This document shows positions 5,512 to 40,833 of a stretch of 40,938 bases of DNA, one piece after another. The position numbers and the translations under genes were made by a program. The notes beneath the pieces were generated by a model. It was not told where the DNA came from. It saw only the letters and a list, made by a program, of their open reading frames with translations, and ran no database searches. The stretch's first letter is position 1. Each line of letters opens with the position of its first letter. Source of the stretch: a virus; IMG/VR virus record IMGVR_UViG_3300037193_000214, positions 1-40,938 of that record, one strand, 5' to 3'.

Positions 5512-5739
5512 ATGTCTAGACGTAATCAGCGGTTTAAGCCCCTTAAGTTCGTGGTGAACGCCACTAACACGGCATGGGTGGCCGAACCACACCACAAGAC
5601 TTACGTTATCGCCAAGGGTGAAAATGGGTATATCGTAATTGGCACGTTCAATATGGATGGTGTTTACTCATTCATTTCAGATGCCAAATCAGTTTGCCAA
5701 CTCGATTGGGAAGCTCGGGTAAAGGAATGGCTAGCGTGA
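5512..5739 (+). CDS. Hypothetical 75-residue protein
   Basis: Unrecognised. The start is preceded by TTGGAGCGGTGAA. Basic N-terminus, beta-rich middle, helical acidic end. The stop overlaps the next gene's start (TGATG at 5737-5741). Confidence 0.6.
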   Translation: MSRRNQRFKPLKFVVNATNTAWVAEPHHKTYVIAKGENGYIVIGTFNMDGVYSFISDAKSVCQLDWEARVKEWLA

Positions 5740-5969
5740 TGGGCTCGTATGAGTATGGTGCCGATGTCGGGGATACCGACCTTATTTCATGGGCCATTTG
5801 GCGGCATGAATATTGGTTCCTGTGGTGGCGCTGGTCTATATGGCGTTGGAACGTCCAGTACTATCAGCCCGGCAAACTACAGCCTTACGCGACCTTTACC
5901 GGGGCGCGGAATGACAAGGCTATAACCCAAAAGATTGTTGAGCGTCTTGTGTCAATGGGGCCTAAGTAA
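5739..5969 (+). CDS. Tryptophan-rich small protein
   Basis: A 76-residue protein whose residues about 17-36 (WAIWRHEYWFLWWRWSIWRW) hold eight Trp among twenty residues, interspersed with Arg. Such amphipathic Trp/Arg clusters favour membrane interfaces, so a membrane-active or membrane-associated role is an inference. The ATG at 5739 overlaps the upstream stop as TGATG; the ATG at 5727 is an alternative. The stop overlaps the start of the Spo11-like gene (TAATG), so the two are probably translated together. Confidence 0.6.
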   Translation: MGSYEYGADVGDTDLISWAIWRHEYWFLWWRWSIWRWNVQYYQPGKLQPYATFTGARNDKAITQKIVERLVSMGPK

Positions 5970-6976
5970 TGGCTAGAGAAAAATTCATCGAACAGGCGTT
6001 CCGAACCAAATCGGTTGCCCTGATCAATCACGCCAACGCAATCCTGAACGCCAACGTCAAGGCCGGGTACACCATGACCTTGCGCCAACTCTATTACCAG
6101 TTGGTACAGGCCGGTATCATCGAAAACAACAAGAACAGCTATGAGCGCCTTGGTTCCCTCATGAACGATGCGCGCCGGGCTGGCCTTGTTGATTGGGCGG
6201 CTATCGAGGATCGGGGGCGTAACCTCAACCGGTGGGACTTGTTCAAAGACCCTAACGACTTCCTCAATAGGATGATCAGGTATTATCTTGAGGATTTATG
6301 GCGCGACCAAGACACCTATGTTGAAACGTGGATTGAGAAAGACGCCCTGATTGGCGTTCTTGAGCGTCCCTGTGGGCATTACCTCGTGCCGTACTTCGCC
6401 TGCCGTGGCTACCCGTCAACCTCGGAACTGTACAGCGCTGCTAAGCGCTTTGACCGGAAGGCCGGGGCGGGTAAGCGTGGTGTGATCCTGTATTTAGGTG
6501 ACCATGATCCTGCCGGGGTGGATATTCCGAGGGCGAACCAAGAGAACCTTGACTTGTTCTGCCGTCGCTCGAATATTGAGCTAAAGCGTATCGCCCTGAA
6601 CATGGACCAGATTGACGACCTTGGTATTGTGTCGGACCAAACTACCAAGGCAGGCGATAGTAAGTCGTTTGGTTATGAACAGGATTACGGTACGGACACC
6701 TGCTGGGAACTTGATGCCCTTACCAATCAGTTTATTGATGAACTGGTTCGGAGCGAGATTGTCAAGCTCATGTCCGACGCGGACCTGTTTGAACAGCGGC
6801 GCGCGGAAATGGACGCTAACGAACAACTCTTGCGCGATGTTGCGGAAAACTATCCGGACGTACGGAAGTATCTACAACACCGGGATACCAACGTCGATAT
6901 TATCGAGGGCGATTGGTCCCCCGACGATCTTATCAATGAAATTGAGGAACGGGAACAAGATGGCACCGAGGATTAA
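5969..6976 (+). CDS. Spo11/topoisomerase VI subunit A-like protein
   Basis: A 335-residue protein with both modules of the Spo11/Topo VI-A family, which cut DNA through a tyrosyl-phosphodiester. Near the N-terminus TLRQLYYQL (residues 37-45) matches the R-x-x-Y-Y winged-helix motif; Tyr43 is the expected nucleophile. The Toprim fold follows: WIEKDALIGVLE with Glu123, CRGYPSTSEL, and ILYLGDHDPAGVDI with Asp178 and Asp180, the metal ligands. An acidic C-terminal tail of about 100 residues is additional. No GHKL ATPase (Topo VI-B) is visible in the window, so it resembles lone A subunits such as Topo mini-A. Neighbours: Trp-rich protein upstream, VRR-NUC nuclease downstream. Relaxation, cleavage to start recombination, or non-catalytic DNA binding are all open. 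Confidence 0.75.
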   Translation: MAREKFIEQAFRTKSVALINHANAILNANVKAGYTMTLRQLYYQLVQAGIIENNKNSYERLGSLMNDARRAGLVDWAAIEDRGRNLNRWDLFKDPNDFLNRMIRYYLEDLWRDQDTYVETWIEKDALIGVLERPCGHYLVPYFACRGYPSTSELYSAAKRFDRKAGAGKRGVILYLGDHDPAGVDIPRANQENLDLFCRRSNIELKRIALNMDQIDDLGIVSDQTTKAGDSKSFGYEQDYGTDTCWELDALTNQFIDELVRSEIVKLMSDADLFEQRRAEMDANEQLLRDVAENYPDVRKYLQHRDTNVDIIEGDWSPDDLINEIEEREQDGTED

Positions 6977-7159: not shown

Positions 7160-7711
7160 ATGGGCTATTACGGTAACGTGCCGAAGGTGGGGGAAAAGAC
7201 CCGCCTTACAAAAGATGAACTTGTTACTATGCTCAATCGCGAGATTGAGTTCGGGGGTGATCGGTACGCGACCCAAGAACGGCGTATTGCTGAACTTCAA
7301 AAGTGGCGTACCGAGTTGCAAGAGACTAACAACCGCATGCTTGAACGGGCGCGAGCGGCTGACCGCGACCGAACGGATATGGCGGCGATGTTGGAAACGG
7401 CCCTTGATGAGCTTGCCGAGGTTAAGGGCGAACGCGAGCGCGATATCATCCTACACCTTGAGCAGCAGACTTGGGCCCGTATCGAGTTGAACAAGGCTAC
7501 CGAGGCGCGTGACTATTGGATACGCGAGGCGACAACTTGGGCTAAAACATTTGCCAAACTACGGCAGAACGTCGAACGGTATGAAGCTCAAATGAACGTT
7601 TGGGTTGATAACATGAAGGCGTTCGCAAGAGGCGGTATCATTATCGATCTTATCGTGTGCGGTCTTGCCTTTCTGGTAATCGCGGGCGTCGTGCCCCCGG
7701 TGTTTCGATGA
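7160..7711 (+). CDS. Coiled-coil protein with C-terminal membrane anchor
   Basis: A 183-residue protein: long charged helices with heptad character (about residues 17-145, rich in Glu, Arg, Leu) followed by one hydrophobic segment near the C-terminus (GGIIIDLIVCGLAFLVIAGV) and a short tail. The topology suggests a tail-anchored inner-membrane protein with a cytoplasmic coiled coil. It lies between the Spo11-like and VRR-NUC genes; the stop overlaps the VRR-NUC start. Role unknown: membrane tethering of the replication or recombination machinery, or superinfection exclusion, are possibilities. Confidence 0.65.
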   Translation: MGYYGNVPKVGEKTRLTKDELVTMLNREIEFGGDRYATQERRIAELQKWRTELQETNNRMLERARAADRDRTDMAAMLETALDELAEVKGERERDIILHLEQQTWARIELNKATEARDYWIREATTWAKTFAKLRQNVERYEAQMNVWVDNMKAFARGGIIIDLIVCGLAFLVIAGVVPPVFR

Positions 7712-8196
7712 AACCAGAACAACTAGCCGGGGAAAGCGAGCATTCGCACCAAGTTGCCTTGTTCGCATGGGCGGCGCTCAATGTGGGCAATGATCCCCGG
7801 CTATCGCTCATGTTCGCCATCCCCAACGGGGGCGGGCGCGGTAACGACCGGCGCACGGCGATGATACGCGGCGCGGCGCTCAAAGCTGAGGGCGTAAAGC
7901 CCGGCGTGGTTGATATATTCTTGCCGGTCCCTGCCCCTACTGATCATCGCGACAAGGCATATCATTACCTTGCTCAGCACTGGTATCACGGCCTGTTCAT
8001 CGAAATGAAGAAGCCAGCGGCTAAACTCAAGCGCGGGCCGAATGGTCCCGGCCCATGGGATTACGGCGGCGTTGATCCTGACCAAAAAGTGTTCCTAGAC
8101 GCCATGGTTGAACAAGGTTACAAATGTGTTGTCTGTTACTCGTGGATTGAGGCAGCAAATCAAATCAAACTTTACCTAACCGGGAGCGGACTATGA
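7708..8196 (+). CDS. VRR-NUC domain nuclease
   Basis: A 162-residue single-domain protein of the VRR-NUC (PD-(D/E)xK) type, a family that includes phage and FAN1-type structure-specific nucleases. Visible landmarks: ESEHSHQVALFAWA with the N-terminal Glu, FAIPNGGGRG, then GVKPGVVDIFLPV (catalytic Asp) and GLFIEMKKP (catalytic E-x-K), and a C-terminal helix-strand (VFLDAMVEQGYKCVVCYSW). Length is typical for stand-alone VRR-NUC. It overlaps genes on both sides (ATGA-type) and is likely a partner in replication-intermediate or junction processing with the Spo11-like protein two genes upstream. Confidence 0.8.
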   Translation: MKPEQLAGESEHSHQVALFAWAALNVGNDPRLSLMFAIPNGGGRGNDRRTAMIRGAALKAEGVKPGVVDIFLPVPAPTDHRDKAYHYLAQHWYHGLFIEMKKPAAKLKRGPNGPGPWDYGGVDPDQKVFLDAMVEQGYKCVVCYSWIEAANQIKLYLTGSGL

Positions 8197-8684
8197 GCGA
8201 CGAAAAAGTTGAACGCCTTACTAACAAGGGTATCGTGTCGGCATTGGCTGCCCTTACTGGTCAATTCGGTAAGGAAGAACCTGATATGAAGGTTCTAAGT
8301 GAAAGCCTTACCATTCTTGTCGGTGGTGCGCTTATCGATCTGCGTACCATCGCCAACGCCGTCGAAAAGCTGTCTAATTTTAAGCTGGAACGCGTTGGCG
8401 ATATCGTGCTGGGTACTACCGAGCATATCGAAGGGCTGGACCTTACCCCCGAAGAAATCGAAACCATCGAAGCGTTGCGGCGCGGCGATATCCGCACGGT
8501 ATCCACCAGCGACCCGGATGCGCGCGAACGCCGGGCTATCCAACTTTATCGGAACCATGTTGCGCGGGAACGCGAACGCGGCGTTACATTGGACCTTGTG
8601 CCATGGGCTCAGATGCCCGAAAATCACAAGAACCTGTGGCGGCATGAAGCGGAACTTGACCCCAGTAACACGGTCGAAACTTAA
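8193..8684 (+). CDS. Hypothetical 163-residue helical protein
   Basis: Unrecognised, mostly helical and acidic. GGGAGCGGA precedes the ATG, which overlaps the VRR-NUC stop. The segment LTPEEIETIEALRRGDIRTV resembles a short helix-turn-helix but is not convincing. Last gene before the promoter at 8688. Confidence 0.6.
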   Translation: MSDEKVERLTNKGIVSALAALTGQFGKEEPDMKVLSESLTILVGGALIDLRTIANAVEKLSNFKLERVGDIVLGTTEHIEGLDLTPEEIETIEALRRGDIRTVSTSDPDARERRAIQLYRNHVARERERGVTLDLVPWAQMPENHKNLWRHEAELDPSNTVET

Positions 8685-8687
8685 GGG

Positions 8688-8726
8688 TTGACACTCTAAA
8701 CCGCATGCCCTATAACTGTTGCAACA
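8688..8726 (+). promoter_or_regulatory. Strong consensus sigma70 promoter with palindrome
   Basis: TTGACA (8688-8693), 17-base spacer, TATAAC (8711-8716): the best promoter match in the window. The perfect palindrome TGTTGCAACA (8717-8726) covers the expected transcription start, a typical operator position. The gene downstream starts at 8743. Confidence 0.75.
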
Positions 8727-8742
8727 AAACGGAGATAGACCC

Positions 8743-8991
8743 ATGCGTAACGGTTCGGTTCACGGCACGACACTTACTAACGGCAAGTTCAATTCGCGGG
8801 CGGTAATCGCCTTCCACCTTGCTTCGGCCACGTCTTGCCTCAATCATTGCACGAAGGGCCTTGCTGGCGTCCTTTACCGGACCCATCACGAAAAGCAGTG
8901 CATGCGCAACGCCATTGCCGCTGCGCGGGCCGCTCGCTTGTCCTGCGGCATTTACAAGCCCGGTGACTTCCACCCCGCGCGTCTCGTATAA
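8743..8991 (+). CDS. Hypothetical 82-residue protein behind strong promoter
   Basis: Unrecognised. GGAG at 8731 precedes the ATG. Composition is basic with four Cys and several His residues (CLNHC, HHEKQC), conceivably a metal site. An antisense ORF covers the same bases, but promoter and ribosome binding site favour this strand. Followed by a structured non-coding stretch. Confidence 0.5.
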   Translation: MRNGSVHGTTLTNGKFNSRAVIAFHLASATSCLNHCTKGLAGVLYRTHHEKQCMRNAIAAARAARLSCGIYKPGDFHPARLV

Positions 8992-35664: not shown

Positions 35665-37716
35665 TTATGCACAATCACCCCAAGTAGCACCTTCGGTAGC
35701 ATCCACCTTAATCGGCACCCGCATCCGGGTTGTGGTTTCCATGGTGTGCTTAATGAACGCGAACGCCTCTCGCATCTGTGGGCTATCGTCGCGTACTGAC
35801 CAATCAAGTTCATCGTGCACGGTAAGCCGGGGAACGCCCGTGTAATCGAACACACCGCTATTCCAGCAAGCCAGCATTCCGGCCTTCATGATATCGGGCT
35901 CGGAGCCTTGGAATTTATAGTTCACTGCTCGGTAAAGGTAAGCAAGTTGGATAAAAGAGCCATATGTGTTCAACGCGCGTTCATATGTTAGCGGGGGTGC
36001 ATTCCGGTCTTTATTATACCCGCGCGGCTCCCAAAGGTTGAACCTTACCCGCCTGCCCCGAAGCGTGGTTATGTAGCCGTACTGTTCCGCCTCTGCGGCG
36101 ATAGTCTGCATGGTCGGTTTAACGTATGGCGCACCCGTATAGTATGCGTCAAAGAACGCATTTACTTCCGCGTCTGACATGCCCTTAAGATACTTGTAGA
36201 CCATCGTCTCCTTGCCCACACCGTATAGCAGGGAAAAGTTGACGTTCTTAATGGGTCGGCGCTTAACCGCGATTACTTCCTCATCCGTGGTTGACCAGCC
36301 CATAAGAGGCGCAACCTCGTTATACACCTTGCGGTGGTAGTCCATGTCTGGGTCATTGATATAGGACTGGCGTAAAGCTTCTGCCCCGCCTTGCGGCCCG
36401 CGCGGATCGTCAACGGCGTAATGCGCTAGGATGCGGTAATGGATTTGTGAGTAGTCATGTTTGCGCCAGCCGTGATGACCCGGATCAGGTATGAACAGCT
36501 TGCGCACACGCTTACCAAGGCTGGTGCGGCTTGGTATGTTTTGTAAATTAGGGTCGGATGAAGAGAACCGGCCAAGAAAGGTTCCGTTAGTTTCGCCACG
36601 TAATGGATGGAATAATGGGTATAGATACCCGTTAACGTTCTTGTCGAGAATGTAGCTCTTAACGAACGTACCGTTTATCTTCTCATGCTCGCGTATGGCT
36701 AGGATATCTTCGGCAACCGGGTGTTGCAAAACCTCTAGCCATTCTTTCGTTACCGATGGGTTGCCCGCTTTAGTTCTCGGGTAGGTGATACCAATGTGAT
36801 CAAATAGCTTACCTAGCTGACGACTGTCCGCGCTATCGTCGCCCCTAGTGTTAGCCAGTCTGTACCCGTATTCGTGTTCAATCTTTGCGTATAGGGCATT
36901 AATGTCGCCCTCAAGCTCACGGGTGAACGCTTCCGCGCGGGCAACGTCAGTGTATGTACCGGCCTTACGCATAGCGATGAGCATTGGTATAATGCCATGC
37001 TCTAGATCGTATATATCGCCAAGCCGTTCGGCGGCGATCAAGGGCCATTGCTTTTCGATGATGCGTAACGGTTGATCCGCGTCACCCTCACCGTAGAAGC
37101 CGACCAGTCGGGGCGGGGTGCGGTATATTTCGCCGCGCCACTTGGAAGGGGCTGGCTTATAAGCCGCCATGATCCAATCTTTAAGCCATTCGGTTTTCTT
37201 GCCCTCGCCTAGGTACTTGTGGGCCAGTGTTTCAAGGCTGACAGACACGGCGTTGTTGTCTAGGATAGCTTCGGCGAATTGGACGTCATGGAATGGGCCG
37301 CGAACGGTAACGCCTTCCTCATCCATCCAACCGATATCGTACATTATATTCGCGCCAACCTTTGGCAGGCTCGGGTTACCTAGCCAATGTTGCGCAAAAC
37401 TGAGACATTGGCGCACGTCCATATTGTCATGCCCCTCAACCTCATGCCTCATTGGGAAGTACCACTTGCCCCGGTTGCCCTGCCGATCTATGGCGGCTAG
37501 CGAATAGCCGACGATGTGGCCCTTATGCCGAGCCCAGCCCGGCCCAGCCTGCATAAGTTCCGGGTCTTTGGTTTCAACGTCAAAAGACAATCCTACCGCT
37601 GCGGACAGGTTGGGAAATTCGGTTGGGGGCTTCCATCCGGTATCAGGAACCGGGGGCAGCGCATGAATATGCGCCGCCTTTTTAGTTACCAGTTCAAGCC
37701 CGTCAAAAAGCCCCAT
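35665..37716 (-). CDS. Family A DNA polymerase with 3'-5' exonuclease
   Basis: A 683-residue replicative polymerase of the Pol I family. Proofreading domain: SFDVETK (Asp46, Glu48), GANIMYDIGW (Asn123, Asp127) and FYGEGD (Tyr208, Asp212), all intact. Polymerase: motif A DYSQIHYR (421-428), motif B R-x3-K490-x3-F494-x3-Y498-G, and motif C VHDEL (His634-Glu636). Position 426, the Glu that forms the steric gate with the O-helix Tyr in E. coli Pol I, is His here. Phe494 suggests discrimination against dideoxy substrates. There is no 5'-3' exonuclease domain. Last gene of the leftward replication operon. Confidence 0.92.
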   Translation of the reverse strand: MGLFDGLELVTKKAAHIHALPPVPDTGWKPPTEFPNLSAAVGLSFDVETKDPELMQAGPGWARHKGHIVGYSLAAIDRQGNRGKWYFPMRHEVEGHDNMDVRQCLSFAQHWLGNPSLPKVGANIMYDIGWMDEEGVTVRGPFHDVQFAEAILDNNAVSVSLETLAHKYLGEGKKTEWLKDWIMAAYKPAPSKWRGEIYRTPPRLVGFYGEGDADQPLRIIEKQWPLIAAERLGDIYDLEHGIIPMLIAMRKAGTYTDVARAEAFTRELEGDINALYAKIEHEYGYRLANTRGDDSADSRQLGKLFDHIGITYPRTKAGNPSVTKEWLEVLQHPVAEDILAIREHEKINGTFVKSYILDKNVNGYLYPLFHPLRGETNGTFLGRFSSSDPNLQNIPSRTSLGKRVRKLFIPDPGHHGWRKHDYSQIHYRILAHYAVDDPRGPQGGAEALRQSYINDPDMDYHRKVYNEVAPLMGWSTTDEEVIAVKRRPIKNVNFSLLYGVGKETMVYKYLKGMSDAEVNAFFDAYYTGAPYVKPTMQTIAAEAEQYGYITTLRGRRVRFNLWEPRGYNKDRNAPPLTYERALNTYGSFIQLAYLYRAVNYKFQGSEPDIMKAGMLACWNSGVFDYTGVPRLTVHDELDWSVRDDSPQMREAFAFIKHTMETTTRMRVPIKVDATEGATWGDCA

Positions 37717-37720
37717 AACC

Positions 37721-39127
37721 CTACTCGCCTACATCTTTCAGATTGTTGGCCCATTCGCTCGGGACAAACCCATTGGTAATGGCAGCGTTTTCCTGCCCAC
37801 TGGTAAGGGGAATGCCAGTGTCTTGGTCGGTGAAAATATAGGCTTCTTCCACCGGGCTAGGAACTTCCTCAACAGGCACGCCCTGCCGCTCGCTTTCGTA
37901 TTCAGGATCACCGGCAAGGCCCCCTGCGGGGATGCCATTCCAGCCCTGTGACGCGGCTGCGGGCTGCTGCATGGCCCAGCTACCGTCCGCCGCTGCCTGT
38001 GGCGTTGCCCAGCCGCCCTGCGGTGCCTCGGGGGCCGCTTCCGAGCCCCAGCCACCATTTGTGGGCACTTCCGGTTCCTCAAGCGGAGCCAGCCCGGCAA
38101 TGACACCGCGCACCTTGTCCCCATAGAATACGAAAGTTGGCCCACCTTGAAAAGACCCGATGGTAAATCTAGGTGCCATGGTTTCGACGGACAGCAAGCG
38201 CTTAGCGTCGATATCGAGTGTAATAGCGATTTCCGGCACTTCAAGTGATGCGCCCAGCCGCCTATCGGGGTTGGTACGAACAAGGCCAGGGCGAATAATC
38301 AGGCGGTTGTTCCCCTCGGTGAATGGGGCCAGCGCCTTGGCCGTGTTCCAGAGTTTAGCCGGTGTTTCCATCGGTTCAGTAGGTACGTTGATAAGCTGGT
38401 AGAATGTTGCGTTTACCGCATCCGGCCATGTGTCTGCCGGGTAGGTGGCAGTACGTAGCCAAGACCCATCGGCAAAGTGAACAGTAAAGGTTGTCCAGTC
38501 GTGGTTTACGCCCATGCCCACGGGTGGCTTACCAGCCTTCACCAGTGCAGTAACGAACTGCTTGGGTAGGATAAGACCGGGCGGGGTCATATTGCCGTGA
38601 TGGGCTTCCACAATGGTTACGCTATCGGTAGCCATGACACTGCTGTTCTCGGTAAGTCGGATAGCCGAGTAAAGCACCTTGTCCCCGGTTTCGGTGGTGA
38701 TCCTTCCGGCGATTTCGAGCGCCTTAACAAATCCCTCGCCATCGGTAAATCGGGCTTGGTTCATGTCCGGTTGTGTTGGGATGACTTGGTCATTCTCAAG
38801 CGCTGGAACAAGCGCTTGATACTTACCCGAGTTGATTTCAAACGCGCCGTTCTCGCGCTGGGTAAGGACAAAGTTCTTGTCCGTATTTTCCAGCGCTTCG
38901 GCCAAAAGCTTGGCATGCGGGTATCCGGCGATGCCTTCTGGGATGGGATGACCTGCCGCGACCACACCGTCAAAGCCGATGGCTTGCCCCATGTTCATCC
39001 ATACATGGTGCGTTTGGGGCATAGATGTGGTAGTAGGGGTTTTCAAAACCCCAATGAAGTTTAGGGCGCTGATAAGCCCTGCTGCGGTTTCATTCTTAGC
39101 CGTCGCCCGGCCTCTACGTGGTGCCAT
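37721..39127 (-). CDS. Sliding-clamp-like protein with Trp/Gly-rich tail
   Basis: A 468-residue protein whose first about 360 residues resemble a DnaN-type clamp in three parts: HAKLLAEALENTDKNFVLTQ with SGKYQALVPAL; GDKVLYSAIRLTENSSVMAT, LPKQFVTALVKAG and HFADGSWLRTATYPADTWPD; then RLLSVETMAPRFTIG. The ATD and Y/F-P-D landmarks are typical. The tail (about 362 on) is disordered, with Trp every 10-13 residues in Gly/Ala/Gln/Pro sequence and a short acidic end, possibly a protein-binding arm. The ATG at 39127 has AAGGAA upstream; a GTG at 39145 overlaps the helicase stop. Placement between helicase and polymerase supports a processivity role. Homology is inferred by eye. Confidence 0.5.
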   Translation of the reverse strand: MAPRRGRATAKNETAAGLISALNFIGVLKTPTTTSMPQTHHVWMNMGQAIGFDGVVAAGHPIPEGIAGYPHAKLLAEALENTDKNFVLTQRENGAFEINSGKYQALVPALENDQVIPTQPDMNQARFTDGEGFVKALEIAGRITTETGDKVLYSAIRLTENSSVMATDSVTIVEAHHGNMTPPGLILPKQFVTALVKAGKPPVGMGVNHDWTTFTVHFADGSWLRTATYPADTWPDAVNATFYQLINVPTEPMETPAKLWNTAKALAPFTEGNNRLIIRPGLVRTNPDRRLGASLEVPEIAITLDIDAKRLLSVETMAPRFTIGSFQGGPTFVFYGDKVRGVIAGLAPLEEPEVPTNGGWGSEAAPEAPQGGWATPQAAADGSWAMQQPAAASQGWNGIPAGGLAGDPEYESERQGVPVEEVPSPVEEAYIFTDQDTGIPLTSGQENAAITNGFVPSEWANNLKDVGE

Positions 39128-39141
39128 TTTCAAGTTTCCTT

Positions 39142-40833
39142 TCACTCGTATTCGTAATTAGTCACTTCGGGTATAGGCTCTTTATTAACCCATACTCGTA
39201 TGCGTTTAGGTTCCTTTAGAAGTTTACCGAGTTCCGCTTTAAGTGCCCCATCTACCTTGTCCGGCACGCCCCAATCCGGGCGTTTTGTCCTAGCGTACCA
39301 CCATTCTTTTGCTTGGTGCAACAGCCAGCCTTTTTGCTCAAGGTGTATATAATCCGAGTACCTTTTCTTTGGGGTCACGTAATAGTCAACACGTAAGTAC
39401 GGTAATCCGGATGCACCGATTTGTTTTGAGTAGAACGTGTTTTGCACGTCGAACCACTGGAAATCGTCAACACCGTTGGCAACAAGTTCGCGGACGCTCG
39501 CCATGGCTGAGAACTTGACCGAAAAGTCAAATTCAGCCCCGCAATTATCGCAGTGCTTTACCAGTGTATGATTATAGGCACCGCACCCTTTGTACCCCGG
39601 TTTAAGCCGTTCGGTTTCGCATATCTTGACCGGTGCATCACCCCCGCCCATACCCTTAGCCTTGGGTATTACAGGGTCATTGATGGGACCAAGTTGGGCC
39701 GTGTTCGCCGCGAAATCCAAAACCAAGCAGTTTTGCTTACGGCTGTTAGCGATTGAGGCTAACCGACCTTCGCTAGTGTTAAGGTCAAAAAAGCCGCCTG
39801 TTGCCCACAACGGGCGAGTGCCCCGGCCAAGCATCTGGACCCATAGGCTTGATGACATGGTAGGGCGCAACACAATAATCATGTCTAGCGCCGGGTGGTC
39901 AAAGCCGGTGGTTAAGATATTGTTGCCGACAATACAGCGGTACTCGCCGCGCTTGTATGCCTCAATGCGCCGGGTGCGCTCTTTACCTTCAATACCCCGA
40001 TGAACAACCGTGGTTGGTATGCCCATAGCGTTCAGGATTTCACACACATGGTCTGCGTGTTCAACGCCAGCGGCAAAGACCATCCAACTATATCGGTTCT
40101 GGCCGTAGTGACACGCCTCGCGTAGAGCCCGTACCGTAATGTCGTACTGGTCAACAGCCTTTTGCATTTCACCCGGCTTATAGTCGCCGTTCGAAATACC
40201 AACCCCAGACATGTCTAGGGTTGTTTCGGTTGGCCGGGGGATTGGTTTAACCAAGTAGCCTTGTTCAAAGAACCAGTTGAACGGCTCCACCCCAGTCATG
40301 TCAACAATGGTATCGCTGAATACCGCGCCGTCCGTTATCTTACCTTGCCCGGTGCGCCATGGGGTTGCGGTAAGGGCTATGACCCGCAAGTAAGGGTTAA
40401 CCTTGCGCAACGCGTCAAGGTAGTCAAAGTACATGGTGTCTGAGTTGGGGTTGAGTAGGTGCCCCTCATCGACTAGGCAAAGGTCAACATGTCCGAACTG
40501 TTCGGGTATCTTATGCATGGAAGCAATGCCGCCGTACGTTATCGGCATGTTGAACTGCTTCTGATTTAGTCCAGCCGAGTAAATCCCGACAGGTGCTTGC
40601 GGCCACGCCTCTTGCAGCTTGTCTAGGTTTTGCTTGATAAGTTCCTTGACGTGAACAAGCATCTGTATCCGCGCATTCGGCTTAATCTCGAACGCTTTTT
40701 GCGCAACGCCCGCGATAACGTGCGATTTGCCGGTGCCTGTGGGCATGGCAACAACTCCACCCAATGACGTGCTGTTAGCCAGCCAGTCAAAGGAGCGATT
40801 GATAGCGAACGATTGGTAATCCCGGCTTGCCAT
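39142..40833 (-). CDS. SF2 DNA helicase with zinc finger
   Basis: A 563-residue DEAD/DEAH-type (SF2) helicase. Motif I AMPTGTGKS (residues 29-37), motif II VDEGH (121-125), motif III LTATPW (154-159), motif V TTGFDHP and motif VI QMLGRGTRP are all present. After the two RecA-like domains comes a C-x11-C-x10-C-x2-C zinc site (CETERL ... KHCDNCG), then about 140 residues of alpha/beta accessory domain with many aromatic residues. It likely unwinds DNA at forks or repairs replication intermediates; similar proteins are encoded next to phage Pol I genes. Four bases separate it from the upstream partial gene. Confidence 0.88.
   Translation of the reverse strand: MASRDYQSFAINRSFDWLANSTSLGGVVAMPTGTGKSHVIAGVAQKAFEIKPNARIQMLVHVKELIKQNLDKLQEAWPQAPVGIYSAGLNQKQFNMPITYGGIASMHKIPEQFGHVDLCLVDEGHLLNPNSDTMYFDYLDALRKVNPYLRVIALTATPWRTGQGKITDGAVFSDTIVDMTGVEPFNWFFEQGYLVKPIPRPTETTLDMSGVGISNGDYKPGEMQKAVDQYDITVRALREACHYGQNRYSWMVFAAGVEHADHVCEILNAMGIPTTVVHRGIEGKERTRRIEAYKRGEYRCIVGNNILTTGFDHPALDMIIVLRPTMSSSLWVQMLGRGTRPLWATGGFFDLNTSEGRLASIANSRKQNCLVLDFAANTAQLGPINDPVIPKAKGMGGGDAPVKICETERLKPGYKGCGAYNHTLVKHCDNCGAEFDFSVKFSAMASVRELVANGVDDFQWFDVQNTFYSKQIGASGLPYLRVDYYVTPKKRYSDYIHLEQKGWLLHQAKEWWYARTKRPDWGVPDKVDGALKAELGKLLKEPKRIRVWVNKEPIPEVTNYEYE

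Follow-up and report, generated by a model that had tools for sequence, protein, structure and literature searches.

A Topo Mini-A protein in a phage genome record: conserved active site, missing B subunit and likely DNA cleavage in replication or recombination

Identity and probable activity of the phage protein

The virus record analysed here (40,938 bases; the window, i.e., the whole stretch of DNA under study, covers all of the record) contains a gene for a protein that, judged from its sequence, is an ordinary and correctly recognised member of the already described and widespread Topo Mini-A family. The protein (Mini-A in the following) is probably, with a likelihood of roughly 60%, a homodimeric, Mg-dependent tyrosine DNA-cleaving enzyme that acts on phage DNA in replication or recombination without ATP-driven strand passage. 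Two copies would dimerise via their Toprim domains, and in the presence of Mg2+ each Tyr43 would attack one strand and become linked to its 5' end, such that a reversible nick or a double-strand break would arise, again without strand passage driven by ATP. The target would be the phage's own replicating DNA, where Mini-A, acting among the replication and recombination genes of the phage, could either start recombination-dependent replication or relax or resolve intermediates.

Organization of the record and of the gene region

Terminase, portal, capsid, tape-measure and tail genes are situated on the plus strand of the record, and genes for DNA polymerase A, a processivity factor and a helicase on the minus strand (35,665-40,833). 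The terminase, portal, capsid and tail genes in the window, together with the viral nature of the record, place Mini-A on a virus, i.e., on a mobile element. The TAATG at the junction with the small upstream ORF suggests that this ORF and Mini-A form one transcription unit (Table 1). Since Mini-A overlaps small ORFs at either end, it sits in a tightly packed plus-strand block of small genes, and its placement in an early operon, as proposed in the earlier note, is plausible from the gene order. The downstream ORF of 65 aa has no match in PHROGs. The VRR-NUC-like ORF, which belongs to this block, was listed with a start at 7657, the ATG at 7709 being likelier; it has no Pfam match, and its designation as a nuclease rests on the motif. 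Between these two ORFs lies a further plus-strand ORF (7160-7711), coiled-coil-like with a hydrophobic C-terminal segment, which PADLOC matches weakly with JetA/JetC (E=0.0002-0.004), probably through chance similarity of coiled coils.

Table 1. Features of the Mini-A gene and its surroundings (feature, position in the window, strand, description or basis)
Mini-A gene	5969..6976	+	335 aa, ATG start
RQLYY, codons 39-43, with invariant Arg39 and Tyr43 (Tyr43 aligned with the topo VI-A nucleophile)	6083..6097	+	translation, profile alignment, family alignment
Toprim Glu123 codon	6335..6337	+	translation, profile alignment, family alignment
Toprim D178-H179-D180 codons	6500..6508	+	translation, profile alignment, family alignment
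WELDAL, codons 246-251, with Glu247 and Asp249 invariant within the phage clade	6704..6721	+	family alignment
Small ORF upstream of Mini-A	5694..5969	+	stop codon overlaps the Mini-A start (TAATG)
Small ORF downstream, 65 aa	6960..7157	+	begins within the Mini-A gene (17-base overlap)
VRR-NUC-like nuclease ORF	7709..8196	+	motif; phrog_824; short match to phrog_5702 'Holliday junction resolvase'

Family membership and distribution

The protein matches phrog_6247 'DNA topoisomerase' over residues 3-299 (E=1e-92), and a tblastn search with it reached 76 phage records, with a best identity of 46%. The homologue of Pseudomonas phage NP1, which serves as an example of Mini-A in a review (PMC7614492), shows 42% identity over residues 33-295 (E=7e-53), and archaeal plasmid genes annotated as 'Topo Mini-A' match at E=2e-19; both homologies bear out the earlier note, which took the protein for a free-standing relative of Spo11/Topo VI-A of the Mini-A type. 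Single-protein searches of Pfam, NCBIfam and the PDB sequences gave nothing significant, and a match from a PDB profile search was discarded as a chance hit.

A profile scan of IMG/VR yielded at least 560 stretches with Mini-A relatives, and genome contigs a further 183, spread over many bacterial phyla (two archaeal MAGs are among the 80 genome-contig matches listed). Relatives also occur on small plasmids, e.g., of 8.8 kb in an archaeon and of 15 kb in Paenibacillus, and both the hosts and the replication modules are very diverse. The family goes back to Takahashi et al. (2020, NAR Genom Bioinform lqz021; here cited via PMC8185306, PMC7614492, PMC8084294 and PMC11302465), and reviews place Mini-A among the type IIB relatives carried by mobile elements, with unknown function (PMC8185306, PMC8084294, PMC11302465). 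In the papers covered by this analysis, which do not include the founding paper lqz021, no report of a function or activity of Mini-A was found. Given that the family has been on record since 2020 and is common, the interest assigned to the gene at first was overstated.

Distant relatives (23-32% identity) are found on 33 Streptomyces/Kitasatospora plasmids among the matches listed (e.g., NZ_CP107846.1, 10833-11600). Their mean fractional distance from the replicon end is 0.16, compared with an expected 0.25 (p=1e-4, uncorrected for kinship and record topology), so that they lie unusually close to it, and 24 of the 33 read toward the nearer end; the topology was seen for one record, which is linear.

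Conserved residues and the C-terminus

Among 172 aligned relatives, R39, Q40, Y43, N53, Y58, G72, W76, D81, R84, E123, K124, G147, S150, D178, D180, P181, G183, Q214, K227, D230, Y236, E247 and D249 are invariant, whereas Y42 is found in 163 of them. The translation has R39-Q-L-Y42-Y43, E123, D178 and D180 where they had first been read, and the invariance of Y43, E123, D178 and D180 as well as the strength of the phrog_6247 match lift these motif residues beyond chance. Mini-A thus possesses a Topo VI-A-like catalytic tyrosine and a complete Toprim acidic set. R39, Y43, E123, K124, D178, D180, K227, D230 and E247 are also kept in distant archaeal and Streptomyces relatives; D249 is replaced by Glu in a distant Streptomyces relative.

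Concerning the C-terminus, the earlier note described an acidic non-core extension of about 100 residues, which shrinks to about 35 extra residues (about 300-335). Residues 236-251, inside the supposed extension, hold the invariant Y236, E247 and D249; the family profile reaches to about residue 299 and the structure model of the window protein is confident to about residue 300, and a family member of only 300 residues (L002) is modelled confidently to its end. The window copy is further peculiar in possessing VSDQT at residues 221-225 (6629-6643) instead of P-P-P-N-P, which is present in about 160 of the 172 relatives (P at 221 in 161 of 172) and adjoins the invariant K227 and D230. Compared with the Mini-A of phage NP1, the window protein has a homologous core with the same catalytic residues, is likewise phage-borne and without a B subunit, and differs in its extra tail and in this replaced motif.

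Similarity to the A subunit of topoisomerase VI

A profile comparison (hhalign) with 22 archaeal topo VI-A sequences gave p=5.9e-4 and paired R39 with R104, Y43 with Y108, E123 with E204 and D178-D180 with D256-D258, such that Tyr43 falls on the topo VI-A nucleophile, as had been proposed. The true score was 35.7; the reversed profile scored 18.1, and 39 of 40 column shuffles stayed at or below 22.4. One shuffle, however, reached 33.6, close to the true score, which counts against the comparison. Mini-A has about 65 fewer residues ahead of the tyrosine than topo VI-A, and in being smaller than topo VI-A and devoid of a B subunit, the protein agrees with the Mini-A type.

By spacing, the equivalents in Methanosarcina mazei topo VI are Y106, R102 and E202/D254/D256, R102 contributing one half of the clasp by which cleavage is held in check (PMC13040014); by analogy, we infer that R39 may play this clasp part. 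An equation of E247 with the clasp residue Glu342 of topo VI-A was set aside as a guess, as the hhalign alignment with topo VI-A ends before E247. Four archaeal genomes contain, in addition to the normal topo VI-A, a further divergent match to topo VI-A/Spo11-Toprim (87-93 bits; G079:C8:29756, G069:C1:29416, G059:C1:1825348 and G089:C200:1411), possibly topo VIII or a different type IIB paralogue.

The AlphaFold model of the window protein (pLDDT 91.4) displays alternating strands and helices in Toprim order at residues 116-207, preceded by helices, one of which bears Y43. In Foldseek searches this model found no significant match in the PDB and one short viral fragment of poor geometry, which was rejected. 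The model of L002 (pLDDT 95.5) has, among 350,542 chains, a sole PDB match with E <= 0.001, namely 9o7o_A, the A subunit of M. mazei topo VI in a cleavage-prone mutant complex (E=9.6e-4, probability 0.97, 321 columns); RecR, also a Toprim protein, appears lower in the list. The rmsd of 20 A over these 321 columns means that the match supports a similarity of the single domains and not of their arrangement. Since the order of secondary structures and the high pLDDT agree between both models, the winged helix plus Toprim fold of the Spo11/Topo VI-A superfamily is predicted for the window protein through that of L002. The fold comparison proposed at the outset thus succeeded for a relative, but not for the window protein's own model.

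Absence of a B subunit and comparison with known systems

PF09239 (Topo-VIb_trans) and PF02518 (HATPase_c) match nowhere in the 40,938-base record, in line with the earlier statement that the window contains no GHKL ATPase, and the 50 related virus records searched, which include ten GenBank phage records, are free of both as well. The same searches recovered topo VI-B in four archaea and HATPase_c in 14 of 14 control genomes, and found no topo VI-B in ten bacterial control genomes, which makes a B subunit supplied by the host unlikely. The missing B subunit is therefore a trait of the family, and the suggestion that a topo VI-B-like gene might lie in a missing part of the genome receives no support from the 50 related records. 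A topoisomerase VI holoenzyme, composed as A2B2 with a GHKL ATPase B subunit, is accordingly not encoded here, despite the alignment of tyrosine and Toprim residues with topo VI-A and the fold match of L002. Topo VIII, likewise a type IIB relative on mobile elements, has a B-type ATPase part, whereas none was found for Mini-A.

These results bear on whether Mini-A is a true topoisomerase, an enzyme that relaxes or decatenates phage DNA by cutting and resealing it in a controlled manner and that either needs no ATP or relies on an ATPase partner so far overlooked. The complete conservation of the catalytic set, the name 'DNA topoisomerase' carried by PHROGs and many phage records, and the reported ability of the related topo VIII of Microscilla marina to relax DNA without ATP (PMC7614492) speak for it; we nevertheless consider it unlikely, given the consistent lack of a GHKL ATPase, the improbability of a host-supplied B subunit, and the shorter stretch before the tyrosine, by which most of the region bearing the DNA latch (residues 44-67, PMC13040014) would be missing.

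Cleavage without ATP-driven strand passage is the preferred reading, for which Spo11 offers a works-like model (topo VI-A-type tyrosine cleavage without full strand passage), Spo11 itself standing outside the direct comparison. Spo11 acts with B-like partners in meiosis, whereas none were found for Mini-A. That Mini-A is the Spo11 counterpart of bacterial viruses, whose ATP-independent, protein-linked breaks start recombination-dependent replication in many tailed phages, is a doubtful extension of this reading.

Attack nucleases of the JetD/MksG (Wadjet) style, which would cut host or competing DNA, are also Toprim relatives of topo VI-A (PMC10123090), and some similarity to them exists: for two Mini-A family members there is a weak match to DUF2399 (best E=0.00016), and in an hhalign comparison with DUF2399 proteins the Toprim part alone aligns (p=3e-4), whereas another JetD-like set remained unmatched. 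MksG is, however, devoid of a catalytic tyrosine at the 5Y-CAP position (PMC10123090), which Mini-A has kept in 172 of 172 relatives. The Wadjet nuclease has no winged-helix tyrosine and works with SMC-like proteins, whereas no PADLOC model matches the Mini-A protein. As Mini-A moreover has replication and nucleotide genes for neighbours in characterised phages, an attack function appears quite improbable. An identification of E247-x-D249 with the conserved acidic pair of JetD/MksG was likewise dropped as a guess, these residues being left unaligned by the JetD-like sets in hhalign.

Common in phages, with an invariant active site and consistently without an ATPase partner, Mini-A is suited as a simple one-protein system for the role of the topo VI-A/Spo11 module without a B subunit. 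The question of this role applies to the whole family and is not specific to the window copy, and beyond the uncultured phage of the window, Mini-A is carried by isolated phages whose hosts are kept in the laboratory, such as NP1 and PaMx25 on Pseudomonas.

Gene neighbourhood in related loci

A search of 174 Mini-A loci, which fall into about 130 independent groups, revealed no conserved partner gene. The commonest type of same-strand neighbour is a VRR-NUC-like nuclease, represented in the window by the ORF at 7709-8196 and present in 11 of the 130 groups, a count without a background rate that does not imply enrichment. A minus-strand neighbour cluster of 17 groups was rejected, as it most likely represents the antisense frame of Mini-A itself, the ORF caller having kept the wrong frame. 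In PaMx25, a Sak4-like annealing protein lies on one side of Mini-A and, separated from it by one small gene, a ligase on the other, with a Cas4-type exonuclease nearby. In Brevundimonas phage Delta and in Chivirus SPN19, Mini-A adjoins a thymidylate synthase gene. The neighbours in characterised phages fit a general role in replication or recombination; as no neighbour is conserved enough, the context does not single out one biological role.

As a further rival reading, Mini-A could serve phage or plasmid replication as an initiator nickase or resolvase that works at specific sites (an origin, or the ends of concatemers or genomes). Such a role would suit the relatives on small plasmids and the position of the distant actinomycete relatives toward replicon ends; the lack of a conserved partner gene nearby and the great diversity of hosts and replication modules render it very improbable.

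In Roseobacter phage RDJL Phi 1, the Mini-A match (8001-8821) takes two tblastn pieces, of which the annotated gene (208 aa) spans only the second, such that the Mini-A gene of this phage may be frameshifted or missequenced.
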